From positions 1 through 37,559 of IMG/VR virus record IMGVR_UViG_3300021233_000106: a DNA stretch of 37,559 nucleotides; one strand, written 5' to 3'. Of the stretch, positions 1,574 to 24,516 are shown in pieces. The notes beneath the pieces were generated by a model, which was given only the letters and a program-made list of their open reading frames with translations, was not told where the DNA came from and made no database searches. Every line of letters begins with the position of its first letter. Position 1 is the first letter of the stretch. The stretch is from a virus. The position numbers and the translations under genes were made by a program.

Positions 1574-2335
1574 ATGATTATTCAAATAATTGGTTTGCCT
1601 GGTTCTGGCAAAACAGAGTTAGCAAAAGCTTTAAAAGAAAGAATAAACGCAATACATTTAAATGCAGATGAAATTAGATCATCAATGAATTCAGACTTGG
1701 GGTTTTCTTTAAAAGATAGAATTGAGCATTCACGTAGGCTCGGAAGCCTAGCAAAAATTGTTGCAAAGCAGGGCGTTGCCCCAGTTATTGTTGATTTTGT
1801 GTGCCCCACTGTAGATACAAGAACAGCGTTTGGCAAGCCAGATATTTTAGTGTTTATGGATACAATTAAAGAAAGTAGATTTCAGGACACAAACCAAATG
1901 TTTGAAAGACCAAAAGAATACGACATATGTTTCCAAAACCACGACATGAGCCCAGAAGAAAAGGCAACAGAAGTCATTATAAGATTTGGTTTACACGATT
2001 GGTCAGCTCCAACAACTTTAATGTTAGGAAGGTATCAGCCATGGCACGAAGGTCACCATGCTTTGTATGAGGAAGCTGGTAAAAGGACTAATCAGGTTTT
2101 ACTTGGAGTTCGTAATACATATAATACCAGCGAAAAAGATCCTCTTAAGTTTGATGAAGTAAAAGAATACATTGCAAAAGATGAGTTTATGGCTGGGTCT
2201 ATGGTTCTTAGGATGCCTAATATAACCAACATTGTATACGGACGTGACGTAGGCTATAAAGTTGAACAGATAAAGTTGGGAGATGAAATTGAAGCTATTA
2301 GCGCTACTGAAAAACGTAAAGAAATGGGCATATAG
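1574..2335 (+). CDS. APS-kinase-like / cytidylyltransferase-like fusion protein
   Basis: 253 aa with two domains. Residues 1-140 form a P-loop kinase: Walker A GLPGSGKT at 7-14, then LNADEIR and an EHSRRLGSLAK segment as in adenylylsulfate kinases (CysC), which make PAPS from APS and ATP. Residues about 146-253 look like a nucleotidyltransferase of the cytidylyltransferase/NMNAT fold: HEGH (158-161) in a GRYQPWHEGHH context and ISATEKR (242-248), matching the HxGH and ISxTxxR motifs. The order kinase then nucleotidyltransferase could give a sulfate-activating or nucleotide-sugar/cofactor enzyme; the second domain is much shorter than ATP sulfurylase, so that reaction is not assured. The downstream DUF2061 gene supports a sulfur link. 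Confidence 0.75.
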   Translation: MIIQIIGLPGSGKTELAKALKERINAIHLNADEIRSSMNSDLGFSLKDRIEHSRRLGSLAKIVAKQGVAPVIVDFVCPTVDTRTAFGKPDILVFMDTIKESRFQDTNQMFERPKEYDICFQNHDMSPEEKATEVIIRFGLHDWSAPTTLMLGRYQPWHEGHHALYEEAGKRTNQVLLGVRNTYNTSEKDPLKFDEVKEYIAKDEFMAGSMVLRMPNITNIVYGRDVGYKVEQIKLGDEIEAISATEKRKEMGI

Positions 2336-2397
2336 TTTTATTTTTGAAAACAACTTGGCTGATAGAGAAGTAGAATTATATTTTAGTAAGGATAAAA

Positions 2398-2604
2398 ATG
2401 AAAGTAACTAAATCAAGATCATTTACAAAATCATTAAGCTATCGTATTTTTGGTACGCTATCTTCATTTTTGGTAGCATACGCAATTACAGGAAAAGGAA
2501 GTCTTTCTGCATTAATTGCTTTTTGGGAAACTGTTGTAAAAGTTGGAATATATTATTGGCATGAAAGAATATGGAACCACATTAAATGGGGAAGATATGT
2601 GTAA
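2398..2604 (+). CDS. DUF2061 family membrane protein
   Basis: 68 aa matching the DUF2061 pattern: basic N-terminus with RSFTKSLSYRIFGT, a hydrophobic stretch, then ETVVKVGIYYWHERIWN and a C-terminal WG. Two hydrophobic segments (about 18-30 and 36-54) suggest a small inner-membrane protein. DUF2061 is known to occur next to or fused with cysC-type APS kinases in bacteria, matching its place here. Ribosome binding site TAAGGAT precedes the ATG. Biochemical role unknown. Confidence 0.8.
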   Translation: MKVTKSRSFTKSLSYRIFGTLSSFLVAYAITGKGSLSALIAFWETVVKVGIYYWHERIWNHIKWGRYV

Positions 2605-2912: not shown

Positions 2913-3037
2913 ATAAATTGTTTTGTAAGATTTTTGGACACAAAATAGAGCATGCTGGGTTTTGCCCATTTACTAAAATAGATTATGATGTGTGCACCAA
3001 ATGCACTAAAATGATACCGTCGAAAGGTAAGGCATGA
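2906..3037 (+). CDS. 43-aa zinc-ribbon microprotein
   Basis: MLNKLFCKIFGHK start, then one Cys in GFCPF and a CTKC pair near the end, with a His between: a probable zinc site. Overlaps the upstream stop and, through ATGA, the downstream oxygenase start at 3034, so it is translationally coupled to both. Function unknown. Confidence 0.55.
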   Translation: MLNKLFCKIFGHKIEHAGFCPFTKIDYDVCTKCTKMIPSKGKA

Positions 3038-3636
3038 GCAATTTAATAAAAAGAGATAATTTAATTTGGGAATGGCAAAATTTTTCTGATGCTTCTCAAG
3101 AAATATTACAAAAAGTTTTACTAAAAGAAAATTGGGTTTACTACACAAATTCTGGCGGGGTTGGAGAAAATCTTGAAGACGAAACAATCAAAGGAAGATC
3201 TACAAGCGTATGGCCAGACGAAGATATATACATGGACGTTATGAGTATATTTAAAGAGTGTTTAAATGAATATATAGAGCAGAACTCTTTATCTATTAAA
3301 GACTCTAATATGGATAGCGGCAGATGGCTGTTTCGAGAGTATAATCCAGGAACCAAGCTTGCACCACATAATGATGCTTATAGCTATGTCCAAGATCAGG
3401 GTAAACCAGTTAGACCAGTTTTAACTATTTTATTTTATCTTAATGATGATTATGTTGGCGGTGAAATAGATTTCCCTAACGACAACTTATGCATAAAGCC
3501 AAAAGCTGGATCAGTAGTCATATTCCCAAGTGAAAAAATACATTCAGTTCTTGAAATGTTTTCAGGAAAAAGATATATGACTCAGACTTATGTTTATGAA
3601 AGAGAATATACTTCATACGATCAAATTTGGAAGTAA
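3034..3636 (+). CDS. 2OG-Fe(II) oxygenase 2
   Basis: 200 aa. Iron ligands His112-x-Asp114 and His170, 2OG-binding Arg180 (H-x9-R). Core strands TILFYLNDDYVGGEIDF and KPKAGSVVIFP are diagnostic of the P4H-like family. The 110-residue N-terminal part is not clearly related to the other copies here, so it is a separate lineage and not a recent duplicate. It directly precedes a third oxygenase gene (4-bp gap), so the two are co-translated. Substrate unknown. Confidence 0.9.
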   Translation: MSNLIKRDNLIWEWQNFSDASQEILQKVLLKENWVYYTNSGGVGENLEDETIKGRSTSVWPDEDIYMDVMSIFKECLNEYIEQNSLSIKDSNMDSGRWLFREYNPGTKLAPHNDAYSYVQDQGKPVRPVLTILFYLNDDYVGGEIDFPNDNLCIKPKAGSVVIFPSEKIHSVLEMFSGKRYMTQTYVYEREYTSYDQIWK

Positions 3637-3640
3637 ATAA

Positions 3641-4183
3641 ATGGAAGTTTTATCGGATAAAATAATTAAATTTTCAAATGCATTTAATCCAAATCATTTT
3701 ATAGATTTAATTGAAGAAGTTTCAATATCATCTTATCCGCTAAAACGTGTTGAAAGAAGACCACACTTAACAATGGAGCTTCCAACTTTATTTTCTAAAA
3801 CAGATGATGTTAAATCAGTTAAATTAAGAAATTTATGCATATCAACACTTTTCCCATTAATATCACAATACATATCTATATACAATCTATCTCATATGGC
3901 TCCTAAAAAAGATTTTATAACAATATCAAAGCTTGAGTCTGGAAACTTTATGGATGTACACTCTGACGACGACCAATTAGATTCAGATAATTTTATTTGT
4001 ATGGCCTATATAAACGATAACTATAAAGGCGGGGAATTGCATTTTCCTGAAATAGGAATTCAATACAAACCCAGGGCTGGGGAAGCAATACTATATCAAG
4101 CTAAAGAAAAGCATATGGTTACAGAGTTACTGTCTGGTACAAGGTATACTATAGGTTATGGACTACGTGGACCAATTAGTTGA
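3641..4183 (+). CDS. 2OG-Fe(II) oxygenase 3
   Basis: 180 aa. His107-x-Asp109, His158 and Arg168 form the expected site. The ligand loop is very acidic (VHSDDDQLDSD). Core strands are MAYINDNYKGGELHF and KPRAGEAILYQ. Follows oxygenase 2 after four bases and overlaps the hydrolase-like gene at 4158. Substrate unknown. Confidence 0.9.
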   Translation: MEVLSDKIIKFSNAFNPNHFIDLIEEVSISSYPLKRVERRPHLTMELPTLFSKTDDVKSVKLRNLCISTLFPLISQYISIYNLSHMAPKKDFITISKLESGNFMDVHSDDDQLDSDNFICMAYINDNYKGGELHFPEIGIQYKPRAGEAILYQAKEKHMVTELLSGTRYTIGYGLRGPIS

Positions 4184-5835: not shown

Positions 5836-6510
5836 ATGTTTGAAGCAGTTCAATTAGCAGAAAAAGTTTGGCTATTTAAAGATGCAATAGATAGTCCAAA
5901 AGAATTTTTTAGATCTATAAGCGGGTGGGTGCCAGTAGGAAATCAACAATATATGGAAACTGCAATTGTTCCAACTAAACAATTTCTTGAAGATACAGAT
6001 GAGGCAATCATGAAGTGTTTAGATATATATTACTTAAATAATCAACATTTAAATGATTTAAATTATAAACTTGCTCAATTTACACATTATTACAGAAGAG
6101 GGGCTGGCGAAGGATATGGTGATCATACAGATTTTGCAAGATTGCCAGACGATACATTCTCACCAGTTCAAGCAACTATTTTAGGGTATTACTCAGACCC
6201 AGATGAATACGAAGGTGGAGAAATATTTTTTAGCGATTATGATGTTTCTATAAAACCAGAGGCTGGTAGCATAATAATATTTGGGGATAAAGTTCTTCAT
6301 GGTGTTGCCGAGGTAACTGGTGGAACTAGAACCCTAAGTAGCGTTTTCCTGTTAAAAAATAGAACTTGGGAGAAACAGACTGGAATTAATTTATCTACAT
6401 TAACAAAAGAAGATGAAAGATGGATTAGAGAGAATTCACCACAATATGAAAGAAAAAATGGTGTCTGGAACAGCAGTGTATCAGAACCAATTGAAAAGCT
6501 AGAAGGATAA
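5836..6510 (+). CDS. 2OG-Fe(II) oxygenase 4
   Basis: 224 aa. His97-x-Asp99, His155 and Arg165. Core strands TILGYYSDPDEYEGGEIFF and KPEAGSIIIFG. A C-terminal extension of about 50 residues (ending PIEKLEG) is longer than in the other small copies and resembles that of phage and bacterial Fe(II)-dependent hydroxylases. AAGGAGAAATAA lies before the ATG. It sits one base ahead of a thiol peroxidase gene, so one mRNA carries both. Confidence 0.9.
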   Translation: MFEAVQLAEKVWLFKDAIDSPKEFFRSISGWVPVGNQQYMETAIVPTKQFLEDTDEAIMKCLDIYYLNNQHLNDLNYKLAQFTHYYRRGAGEGYGDHTDFARLPDDTFSPVQATILGYYSDPDEYEGGEIFFSDYDVSIKPEAGSIIIFGDKVLHGVAEVTGGTRTLSSVFLLKNRTWEKQTGINLSTLTKEDERWIRENSPQYERKNGVWNSSVSEPIEKLEG

Positions 6511-6511
6511 A

Positions 6512-6979
6512 ATGTCCATATACGATTTAAATTTTACCGATATTGATGGCAATAATGTCAATATGAAAGATTTTGAAGGTAAAGTAATGTTACTTGTAAA
6601 TACAGCAAGCCAGTGTGGTTTTACAAAACAATACGCTGAGTTACAGGATCTTCATGAAAAGCATAAGGGTGATGGCCTAAAGATCATTGGCTTCCCATGT
6701 AATCAGTTTAATAATCAAGAGCCTGGTACCAACGAAGATATTAAAGATTTTTGTACCAAAAACTATGGCGTAACCTTCCTTATGTCTGAAAAGATAGATG
6801 TCCGAGGAGATTCTGCTCACCCTATTTATAAATTCCTTACATCCACAGTTGGCAGAGAGATTCCTTGGAACTTTGATAAGTTTATTGTAGATAAGTCTGG
6901 GAATGTGACTGGGCTTGCACCACATGAGACACCAGAAACATTCGGTCCTTTCTTAGAATCTTTACTTGGAGATAAATAA
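6512..6979 (+). CDS. Glutathione-peroxidase-family thiol peroxidase
   Basis: 155 aa, the usual length of bacterial GPx-like proteins. Peroxidatic Cys35 lies in NTASQCGFT, the Gln motif in FPCNQFNNQEPG, and Trp119-Asn120 in PWNFDKF. Cys81 in FCTKNYGVTF matches the resolving Cys of yeast Gpx3, so this is the two-Cys, thioredoxin-dependent type and not a true glutathione enzyme. It reduces H2O2 or lipid hydroperoxides in the cytoplasm. Flanked by two 2OG oxygenases, it may protect Fe(II) enzymes or the host membrane from peroxide; that link is inferred. Confidence 0.93.
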   Translation: MSIYDLNFTDIDGNNVNMKDFEGKVMLLVNTASQCGFTKQYAELQDLHEKHKGDGLKIIGFPCNQFNNQEPGTNEDIKDFCTKNYGVTFLMSEKIDVRGDSAHPIYKFLTSTVGREIPWNFDKFIVDKSGNVTGLAPHETPETFGPFLESLLGDK

Positions 6980-6980
6980 A

Positions 6981-7538
6981 ATGGCTCAGCCTAACGTAGT
7001 AGAGGGATTTATATCGCCAGAGACAGCAAAATATTTAAATAATTATTTAAAGTCTAGGTCTTACGTAAATCCAAGAGGACTTCTTAATGTTTACCTTAAA
7101 CCAATTAGATTGAATGAAGAGGGAACAGAAGAAAGCTTTGTGGTTCAAGATTTAATAAATAGGATCGAAGATTCAATATCTAATCAGTTAGGATTTACAA
7201 AAGATCAGGTCGAACTGGATAGAATGAACTATCAAATCCTACAAAAAGGCGAGAGTTTGGGTTGGCATACAGACGCATACGGTGGAGTAGATGGGTACAC
7301 AAGTAGCTACTACTCAGCGCTGCTTTATTTAACAGATGATTACGATGGCGGAGAGATATTATTCTATAACGATAATACTGGTTCGGTAGAGTCAAGCGTA
7401 GCCTACAAGCCAACAGCAGGCACATTAATATACTTTAAGGGTGATGAGAACTATCCTCATTCTGTCAATGAAGTAATAGATGGTGAACGAAGTAATATTA
7501 TACTATTCTATAATGTTAACAATATAGGTCCCAATTAG
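6981..7538 (+). CDS. 2OG-Fe(II) oxygenase 5
   Basis: 185 aa from the ATG at 6981, one base after the peroxidase stop; a TTG at 6966 in the same frame is less likely because it lies inside the peroxidase gene. His96-x-Asp98, His160 and Arg170. Core: ALLYLTDDYDGGEILFY and KPTAGTLIYF. Closest in plan to oxygenase 1 (same C-terminal NIxLFY pattern), so the two may be paralogues. Confidence 0.9.
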   Translation: MAQPNVVEGFISPETAKYLNNYLKSRSYVNPRGLLNVYLKPIRLNEEGTEESFVVQDLINRIEDSISNQLGFTKDQVELDRMNYQILQKGESLGWHTDAYGGVDGYTSSYYSALLYLTDDYDGGEILFYNDNTGSVESSVAYKPTAGTLIYFKGDENYPHSVNEVIDGERSNIILFYNVNNIGPN

Positions 7539-7965: not shown

Positions 7966-8196
7966 ATGATATGGTCATGGATATTAGCCATAATAGGCGT
8001 AACTGGAATTTATTTTGTCGGACGCAAGACAATTTGGGGATGGTTTGTATTACTATTTAACGAGTGTCTTTGGATAGCTTACGCTATAGTAACTAAACAA
8101 TATGGATTCATAGCTTCAGCAATCGCCTATGCAGCAGTATATATTAGATCATACATACACTGGTCAAAAGAGCCTGTAAATGAGATTCATCTCTAA
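7966..8196 (+). CDS. 76-aa multi-spanning membrane protein
   Basis: Three hydrophobic segments (about residues 1-18, 24-42 and 48-62) rich in Trp and Tyr, with a short basic loop GRKT. The pattern of Trp/Tyr and the half-transporter size recall PnuC or SemiSWEET-like repeat units, but the likeness is too weak to name. TTAAGG at 7951-7956 is the likely ribosome binding site. Confidence 0.6.
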   Translation: MIWSWILAIIGVTGIYFVGRKTIWGWFVLLFNECLWIAYAIVTKQYGFIASAIAYAAVYIRSYIHWSKEPVNEIHL

Positions 8197-21509: not shown

Positions 21510-22025
21510 ATGAAAAAATATTTGACTGAAGATCGTCGTGTGTGGGCGGTGGAAAAATTTTTGTCGGAAGAAGAGCTATCTGAATTTGATAGACATATTT
21601 CCAGTACCAAATGGGTTACAAAAGAAGGTTGGTCAAATCCATTGTGGTTTAACAATATATCGATATTTCCAAATTTTCAATTTGTAATTGATAGAGTGAA
21701 TGAAATAACAGAAAATCAATACGAGTGGGTTAGCATGGGTGTCATAATGAGAATTCAGGTTGGGAATCATATGAATCCACATGTAGATAATTATAATTTT
21801 TCAGAAACGGACATAAAGGACAAGTTTTTATCAGCTACACTTTATCTAAATGATGATTTCCTAGGCGGTGAACTATATTATACTAATTTAGGAATAAGCT
21901 ATACTCCTAAAAAAGGATCAATAGTATTTCATCCAGGGTTTGAAGAACTTTATAAGCATGGCGTTAGTGAAGTTAAAGAAAAAGATAGATATGCAGTTGG
22001 TCTTATCGGAAAAGCCTTGACATAG
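21510..22025 (+). CDS. 2OG-Fe(II) oxygenase 6
   Basis: 171 aa, the shortest copy. His91-x-Asp93, His150 and Arg160. Core strands ATLYLNDDFLGGELYY and TPKKGSIVFHP. No ribosome binding site, consistent with a leaderless mRNA. It is alone, followed by a repeat-rich gap. Substrate unknown. Confidence 0.88.
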   Translation: MKKYLTEDRRVWAVEKFLSEEELSEFDRHISSTKWVTKEGWSNPLWFNNISIFPNFQFVIDRVNEITENQYEWVSMGVIMRIQVGNHMNPHVDNYNFSETDIKDKFLSATLYLNDDFLGGELYYTNLGISYTPKKGSIVFHPGFEELYKHGVSEVKEKDRYAVGLIGKALT

Positions 22026-23652: not shown

Positions 23653-24516
23653 TTATTCTTTTACAAAGTTAGCATTAAACTCTGCTGCAAGTTCTTTACC
23701 CTCTAAGCCAGATGCCTGCATTACTGCAATTCTTTCATCTGTAAACATTGGGTTTACCTTTAGAGGCTTTAGCCAATTATCAATTCTTTCTTGCGATCTA
23801 TCACCGATTTGTTCGTAGTACTCTGGAGTCTTGTAGTTATAAAAAGTTCCAGGGTTATCTACTGCTTTAAGTACAAAGTTTGAGAAAGCATATCGTACAC
23901 CAGATGTAACTTCACGAACTCCATGTGCATATGGGTCAAAAGCGCTGTGAATTATAAGATCTCCTCTTTCTGGAGCATATTCAAAACAAGGCTCTCCTAC
24001 TGCTGGTGGAATATTAAATCCATTTGAATCTATATTCAATACGCCATTAGCAGGAACGCTAGGGTAGAATATTTCTCCTCCAGTATAGTTTCCAAAATAT
24101 GCAACTAGGCCGTAATCTAATTCACAGCATGTATCGTACTTATCGTCTTGCGATAGCAAATGACACATTCCTTTTCCTGGACTATCTGAATGAATAAACA
24201 TTCCATTGTCGCCTGGCCTTACGTTTAATATTGCTTGTGAAGGATGAACCACCCATGTTGGATAAAGAAGCTCACTTATAAGCTCCCAAAGCTCCAGTAA
24301 TCTTTTTGGCCTAGGTGTAATTTTATTTGTATACCAGCTTATTAAAGTTGATCCGTAGCTATCTTCATCCCTACCTTTTTCAGAAACGTCAGCCTCTAGG
24401 TCTAGCATCAGTTCTTCAGGTATAAAATTCTTAAATAAGAAGATACCGCTCTCAGTACCGTAAGCATCAATATGCTTAGATAGTCTGATACAGTCTGGTC
24501 GTTCGTAAAAATGCAT
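23653..24516 (-). CDS. 2OG-Fe(II) oxygenase 7 (long form)
   Basis: 287 aa, the largest copy. His109-x-Asp111, His198 and Arg208; core YGLVAYFGNYTGGEIFYP and APERGDLIIHSA. About 25 residues are inserted between the GGEIFYP strand and the distal His motif, and a 75-residue C-terminal extension (TFYNYKTPEYYEQIG onward) recalls bacteriophage and cyanobacterial hydroxylases of this subgroup. AGAAGGAGA ribosome binding site. Only leftward oxygenase. Substrate unknown. Confidence 0.9.
   Translation of the reverse strand: MHFYERPDCIRLSKHIDAYGTESGIFLFKNFIPEELMLDLEADVSEKGRDEDSYGSTLISWYTNKITPRPKRLLELWELISELLYPTWVVHPSQAILNVRPGDNGMFIHSDSPGKGMCHLLSQDDKYDTCCELDYGLVAYFGNYTGGEIFYPSVPANGVLNIDSNGFNIPPAVGEPCFEYAPERGDLIIHSAFDPYAHGVREVTSGVRYAFSNFVLKAVDNPGTFYNYKTPEYYEQIGDRSQERIDNWLKPLKVNPMFTDERIAVMQASGLEGKELAAEFNANFVKE

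Follow-up and report, generated by a model that had tools for sequence, protein, structure and literature searches.

A kinase-adenylyltransferase fusion encoded by phages is probably a minimal bifunctional PAPS synthase that feeds phage sulfotransferases. The fusion gene (positions 1574..2335, plus strand; 253 aa, ATG start) joins an APS-kinase-type kinase to a small HxGH adenylyltransferase. It lies in an IMG/VR virus record of 37,559 bases, the whole of which was analysed and is called the window here; the record may be a fragment, and related records reach up to 117 kb. Production of PAPS is probable because the kinase and an unusually small nucleotide-transfer domain are joined and often stand near sulfotransferase genes. 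The support, drawn from sequence and structure prediction, consists of two intact domains, an APS-kinase identity with its contacts kept, a predicted nucleotidyltransferase fold and linkage to sulfotransferase and DUF2061 genes.

In the proposed pathway the adenylyltransferase (NT) domain would adenylate sulfate, its presumed acceptor (ATP + sulfate -> APS + PPi), and the kinase would phosphorylate the 3′-OH of APS, with PAPS as the presumed product. Placing both steps on one chain would help to drive the first reaction, which is unfavourable. Sulfotransferases of the phage, often encoded nearby, would then transfer the sulfate from PAPS to some acceptor; glycans, lipids, nucleotides and small molecules are all possible targets. 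DUF2061 would assist sulfate activation as a small accessory protein. A dedicated supply of PAPS would mean that the phage brings its own sulfation programme, and would give a direct route to the sulfated product.

Phage sulfotransferases are already known. Their role in phage genomes has been called unclear (PMC10580990), sulfotransferase-based nucleotide modification systems are said to be reported in phages (PMC10829341) and a phage PAPS reductase is treated in PMC10434257. What is new here is the genomic context of the kinase-NT fusion, namely its sulfotransferase neighbours, its split halves and the association of DUF2061 with cysD/cysN. The passages available from the open-access literature on phage sulfotransferase, APS kinase, PAPS and cysC contain no description of such a fusion.

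Architecture and distribution of the fusion

The kinase domain occupies residues 1-140 (1574..1993, plus strand) and carries the Walker A motif GLPGSGKT at residues 7-14. The NT domain occupies residues 143-253 (2000..2332, plus strand), with GRYQPWHEGH at 152-161 (HEGH at 158-161), GRD at 223-225 and ISATEKR at 242-248. The Walker A, HxGH and ISxTxxR motifs reported by the initial annotation are therefore all present, as is the adjacent DUF2061 gene. A whole-fusion AlphaFold2 model from 65 sequences (pLDDT 92.7, pTM 0.84) predicts two domains confidently. The loss of either active site would have counted against that annotation; both are found in the model and in the alignments.

The reading frame is not a chance ORF, as judged from its relatives, a PHROG match and restrained amino-acid change. 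The family is very common, with relatives encoded by at least 589 IMG/VR stretches (589 of the 599 pattern-matched stretches listed), 80 of which were kept. The profile phrog_10255 (PHROG 10255), annotated only 'kinase', aligns over its full length, fusion residues 1-252 matching 2-229 of its 230 positions (E 5.4e-65). Purifying restraint on amino-acid change is strong in both halves of the fusion in all seven pairs tested, with dN of 0.20-0.24 in the kinase versus 0.03-0.11 in the NT domain and synonymous sites close to saturation.

When 84,980 species genomes were scanned with a pattern that detects close relatives only, one contig with the fusion turned up, in a metagenome-assembled genome. 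At E <= 1e-20 the family profile matched one of 296 sampled genomes of the same phylum, and this was the metagenome-assembled genome itself. At least 80% of the fusion protein is covered by matches in the named phages Clavibacter phage 33, Stenotrophomonas phages Bhz60, Suzuki and DLP_6, and Xanthomonas phage AhaSv. Megablast of positions 1-25000 of the window against named phages gave no match. WhiB-like genes lie close to the fusion in 61 loci (cluster 8, one member tested), which suggests that the window's group has actinobacterial hosts.

The kinase domain

By fold and sequence the N-terminal domain is predicted to be an APS kinase. Pfam APS_kinase (PF01583) matches fusion residues 2-85 at E 1.1e-14 with 55.2 bits against a cut-off of 21.1, and the fusion misses the cut-off of the NCBIfam equivalog apsK TIGR00455 (56.6 vs 138.7 bits). 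With VIA, the model of the kinase half matches APS kinases at Z 18.4 to 15.9, and the next family, gluconate kinase, at 15.5 ties with the lowest of these matches. The divergent split kinases of loci L173 and L170 also find APS kinases as their best matches.

In M. tuberculosis CysC, Phe492 and Phe576 stack on the APS adenine, Arg483 and Arg497 hold the phosphosulfate, Asp480 and Lys562 are placed at the ribose and Lys456 lies near the 3′-OH (PMC4373884). Counted along the alignments, K456, D480, R483, F492, R497 and F576 of CysC correspond to K13, D32, R35, F44, R49 and F103 of the window kinase, the pairing of F103 with F576 coming from a second, non-significant alignment stretch. These six positions are kept in all 65 aligned sequences, with F103 occupied by F in 49 and by Y in 16. 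The lid lysine K562 has no clear alignable counterpart in the window kinase. At the position aligned to the Asn that follows DR.E in APS kinases, the 65 sequences have Q (56), H (8) or N (1).

The adenylyltransferase domain

The C-terminal domain is predicted to be an intact HxGH adenylyltransferase fold. At 111 aa it is as short as the initial annotation had held, and modelled alone with AlphaFold2 on 79 sequences it reaches a pLDDT of 94. Its small size is real, since stand-alone NT ORFs measure 111-144 aa (a 50-aa piece in L149 apart). A truncated or dead domain was considered and rejected, as the catalytic motifs are kept and conservation is higher in the NT domain than in the kinase in seven of seven pairs. 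As a single sequence the window domain matches CTP_transf_like at E 0.0022 (18.6 bits, under the cut-off of 21), and at E <= 1 this profile matches all 79 aligned NT members, the best at 3.6e-9.

Motifs named for ATP sulfurylase are a QxRN loop, in which Gln and Arg contact sulfate, a GRD loop, HxxH and SGTxxR (PMC3779200). HxGH, which satisfies HxxH, is invariant in the NT alignment (79/79). The GRD loop is found in 71 of the 79 members (GRG in seven, GRE in one) and SATxxR, with A replacing the G of SGTxxR, in 77. Where ATP sulfurylase has QxRN, all 79 members have GRxQ, so the sulfate loop is missing. An NMNAT-like GRxQPxHxGH loop is present in 77 of 79 members, and GRxVGY is invariant. Because GRxQ stands in place of QxRN, the NT domain is not an ATP sulfurylase by sequence, yet it could work like one. 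Profile searches at E <= 1 with the ATP-sulfurylase family PF01747 match 24 of the 79 members (best 0.0024), the window domain being absent from the matches listed, and there is no ATP sulfurylase domain among the best 50 structural matches of the NT model. There is about an even chance that the NT domain is a second ATP sulfurylase, evolved independently in phages: a domain of some 110 residues that came from an NMNAT-like ancestor, was trimmed until it accepted inorganic sulfate and was paired with an APS kinase, which would give many phage lineages a sulfation chemistry of their own. Were sulfate its acceptor, the domain would represent a small sulfate-activating enzyme of separate origin, and would be of use for regenerating PAPS.

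Fold comparison with VIA places the NT model near phosphopantetheine adenylyltransferase (PPAT, Z 10.4), glycerol-3-phosphate cytidylyltransferase (9.2) and archaeal NMNAT (9.1), with alignments that span about 99-108 of the 111 residues (103-105 for the NMNATs). The Z scores overlap among these families and the NT fold therefore names no acceptor. The fusion might then make a different activated compound, as the initial annotation had suggested for its short second domain: the NT domain would attach a nucleotide to a different small phosphate or acid, and a 3′-phosphate would be added by the kinase-like domain. CoA synthase, which combines PPAT with dephospho-CoA kinase, is a precedent for such a pairing. 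APS-kinase-fold enzymes also act on other substrates, and in Campylobacter phosphoramidate activation an APS-kinase relative acts on a CDP compound. The closeness to NMNATs and the missing QxRN loop fit this proposal. However, both arginines that correspond to the phosphosulfate-holding pair of CysC are invariant in the kinase, and among the recognised neighbour enzymes are sulfotransferases, whose donor is PAPS. Within the span that aligns, PPAT also has about 28 residues more than the NT domain, which therefore probably offers less room for a large acceptor. Manufacture of another compound is accordingly judged unlikely, and less likely than synthesis of PAPS.

Sulfotransferase genes near the fusion

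Evidence for a sulfate-activating role of the fusion comes from its neighbours. Sulfotransferases over the Pfam cut-off adjoin the fusion or its split form in L005, L016, L019, L076, L157, L173, L174 and L244. Four of these loci (L005, L016, L019 and L076) fall into the identity group that contains the window (60% identity or more). The locus set comprised 244 loci, the window and 243 fetched, with near-duplicates and a few twice-fetched contigs included. Sulfotransferase clusters confirmed through scanned members over the Pfam cut-off, rather than through every member, lie no more than 300 b from the gene in 23 of the 244 loci; with the limit at 6 kb, the number is 46. Because different sulfotransferase families adjoin the same enzyme in separate phage lineages, these neighbourhoods point to a common need for PAPS.

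The position of these genes was examined with Pfam profiles, which are free of the bias of profiles built near the fusion. Among 50 records searched, 25 have a Pfam sulfotransferase match at E <= 0.001: 11 to PF13469 (six over the cut-off) and 14 to PF03567 (five over the cut-off). Seven of the 25 have their nearest match within 1 kb of the fusion (1.25 expected; 1 of 20,000 shifts). At a distance of up to 3 kb the number is 13 (2.5 expected; 0 of 20,000), and at up to 5 kb it is 14 (3.7 expected; 0 of 20,000). Many of these matches are under the Pfam cut-off, and this test, like those that follow, counts related records as independent. Restricted to matches over the cut-off, with L131 left out, the count within 3 kb is 5/11 (1.25 expected; 164 of 50,000 shifts). 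With L131, which was added after its PF17784 match had been seen, it is 6/12 (1.36 expected; 24 of 50,000). Four named Casjensviridae phages each have a single PF17784 match in about 56 kb; its distance from the fusion is 638-730 b, and it exceeds the cut-off in three of the four. PF17784 gave no match in Stenotrophomonas phage DLP_6, and PF13469 none in five named phages.

A comparison between groups gave confirmed sulfotransferase genes in 27 of 108 window-group loci versus 4/80 loci around the phage RNR gene and 1/80 around GP88, counts that are biased because the profiles were built from genes near the fusion. As a negative control, a 2OG-oxygenase cluster showed no enrichment (26/108 vs 32/80 and 35/80). 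The window itself has no match to PF13469 or PF03567 over its 37,559 bases, in one scan of which the control genomes gave none either, and none to the local sulfotransferase profiles. In fourteen of 21 identity groups neither a confirmed cluster (up to 6 kb away) nor a weak one (up to 300 b) was counted; among these fourteen, groups 10 and 14 (Casjensviridae) and 13 (L127) have other Pfam sulfotransferase matches nearby.

Several further neighbours were not accepted as sulfotransferases. Cluster 27 has a PRTxST-like motif only, with no Pfam match (L117, L154, L149) and no sulfotransferase in a PDB search. Cluster 30, found directly upstream of the fusion in 11 of 13 group-2 loci, is weakly Stf0-like (4/16 members, best 0.0011) and has no PDB relative. 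Taken together, these two clusters place a gene within 300 b in 29 of the 244 loci, all outside the 23 confirmed. Two scanned members of cluster 144 had no sulfotransferase match, and the neighbour in L167 reached 17.6 bits against a cut-off of 27.

DUF2061

The ORF downstream of the fusion (2398..2604, plus strand, 68 aa) is a DUF2061 protein (PF09834, E 2.2e-17, 63.6 bits vs a cut-off of 23.1). DUF2061 is present in 139 of the 244 loci, in 120 of them no more than 400 b from the fusion. It occurs in 102 of 108 window-group loci versus 0/80 loci around the RNR gene and 0/80 around GP88.

The rhizobial plasmid context suggests a role for DUF2061 in sulfate activation. A plasmid survey gave 21 records with a DUF2061 match, nine of which were inspected. 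Two Mesorhizobium plasmid loci have the order sulfotransferase, DUF2061, cysD, cysN beside nod genes, and two unannotated Microvirga plasmid loci have the order cysD, cysN, DUF2061 by tblastn. The DUF2061 genes beside cysD/cysN lie at 4980-5213 in L254, at 4480-4713 in L420 and near 4501 in L421 and L422. Since each pair is closely related, these four of nine loci amount to two cases. The other five (Phaeobacter, Bradyrhizobium and three haloarchaea) show no cysD/cysN link within 4.5-5 kb. The initial annotation had tied DUF2061 to cysC in bacteria: a linkage to sulfate-activation genes is indeed seen, but the genes are cysD/cysN, with a kinase P-loop carried by the Mesorhizobium CysN.

The same annotation had proposed a phage sulfur-activation module for sulfation of a phage or host glycan. 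The sulfotransferases beside the fusion in several lineages and the plasmid loci speak for the module, with a glycan as one of several conceivable targets, and overall its interpretation is partly supported.

NAD-linked neighbours

The closest solved sequence relatives of the NT domain are archaeal NMNATs (1f9a, E 4e-10), and the NMNAT profile PRK01153 matches all 79 NT members (best 3.4e-13). NadR combines a P-loop kinase with an HxGH adenylyltransferase in the reverse of the order seen in the phage fusion. A corresponding salvage of NAD, in which the kinase would phosphorylate nicotinamide riboside and the NT domain would adenylate NMN to NAD, perhaps restoring NAD during host defence, could be fed by a PnuC-like transporter. 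The window has a PnuC-like ORF of 76 aa (7966..8196, plus strand), noted here as context and outside the module assignment. PnuC-like homologues directly precede the fusion in four loci (L015, L023, L063 and L075), and such a gene is present in 10/108 window-group loci versus 0/80 and 0/80 controls, a comparison biased because its profile was built from genes near the fusion. A NADAR-domain gene, which also fits an NAD theme, adjoins the fusion in each of the three Casjensviridae checked (L082, L083 and L086), where it lies between the fusion and a Sulfotransfer_4-like gene.

However, the kinase is of the APS-kinase type with the APS contacts kept, and not of the ribosylnicotinamide-kinase type, the AAA_28 profile for which reaches 18.1 bits, below its cut-off of 27. 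Significant profile similarity of the NT domain to NMNAT is confined to positions 6-77 of 113, and the window domain misses both NMNAT NCBIfam cut-offs (PRK01153, 26.2 vs 127 bits; TIGR01527, 20.5 vs 181.2). The PnuC-like ORF is partial, covering positions 2-69 of 175 in PF04973 at 27.5 bits against a cut-off of 27.3, and the homologue in L023 falls under it at 26.9. NAD salvage would also leave the sulfotransferase linkage and the DUF2061 association with cysD/cysN unexplained. It is thus improbable, ranking just after the different activated compound, and PAPS synthesis is the preferred reading.

Fused and split forms

A profile search of the 244 loci found 265 ORFs: 213 full fusions, 28 kinase-only and 24 NT-only. 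By locus, the gene is fused in 213, both halves are separate ORFs in 21, the kinase is alone in seven and the NT domain is alone in three. L149 may be a fusion with an interrupted frame, and L246 (kinase-only) and L171 are cut by contig ends. The order of the kinase and NT genes is reversed in L168, and tblastn of the split kinase of L173 against named phages gave no match.

The seven loci with a kinase ORF without NT (L246 among them) and the presence of cysC among the viral genes of a virome survey (PMC8066274) would fit a kinase that makes PAPS from host-made APS with the NT domain as an auxiliary, for example in APS hydrolysis, regulation or dimerisation, but this is very improbable given that constraint is stronger on the NT domain, whose catalytic motifs are kept, and that split halves share a neighbourhood in 21 loci.

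A GIY-YIG endonuclease-like gene lies between the split kinase and NT genes in L157, L158, L160, L161, L163 and L165 (tested in L157), a placement that looks like the insertion of a homing gene.

Relation to known enzymes and gene clusters

The two human PAPS synthases, PAPSS1 and PAPSS2, have an N-terminal APS kinase and a C-terminal HxGH adenylyltransferase (PMC11697783). The phage fusion shares this domain order together with Walker A and HxGH, and PAPSS1 chains are among its matches. In contrast to the human enzymes, it is phage-encoded and its NT domain is limited to 111 aa, has GRxQPxHxGH for QxRN and finds its nearest relatives among NMNATs. Archaeal NMNATs (1f9a, 1ej2) resemble the NT domain in the GRxQPFHxGH and NPF blocks as well as in fold, whereas the profile match stops before the GRD block and the NT domain is shorter, is fused to or near an APS kinase and has the invariant GRxVGY. 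NadR structures 6gyf and 6gzo are weak matches of the NT domain, and the fusion differs from NadR in the APS-kinase type of its kinase. The Nod-factor sulfation cluster of Mesorhizobium likewise brings together a sulfotransferase, DUF2061 and sulfate-activating genes, and differs in using CysD/CysN instead of an HxGH mini-domain and in its location on a bacterial symbiosis plasmid.

Among viral proteins the best structural match is the 'adenosine 5′-phosphosulfate kinase' of Ralstonia phage RSL1 (B2ZYE1, 231 aa), with 40% identity over 148 columns; no paper on it was found in the open-access literature. A Ralstonia phage with a 144-aa adenylylsulfate kinase is reported in PMC8504454. In Lake Baikal viromes cysC and nadM are given separately (PMC8066274). 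The fusion might correct surveys that count its halves as cysC and nadM, and the Baikal genes may be this one.

Other genes near the fusion

The window contains seven 2OG-Fe(II) oxygenase-like ORFs (185-760, 3034-3636, 3641-4183, 5836-6510, 6966-7538, 21510-22025 and 23653-24516), six of which exceed the PF13640 cut-off while the last falls below it. A glutathione peroxidase gene is located at 6512-6979 (PF00255, 143.8 bits). Elsewhere, an adenylosuccinate synthetase-like gene, possibly of the PurZ type, immediately precedes the fusion in 17 of 25 group-1 loci (the L100-L123 group), for example at 4976-6001 in L109 (261.9 bits). A QueC-like PP-loop gene (cluster 22, tested in L149 and L100) is found near the fusion in 25 loci, comprising the L100-L123 group and L149. 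In group 0, the start of the cluster 35 protein, encoded near the fusion in 22 loci, resembles by eye a tryptophan-halogenase flavoprotein.
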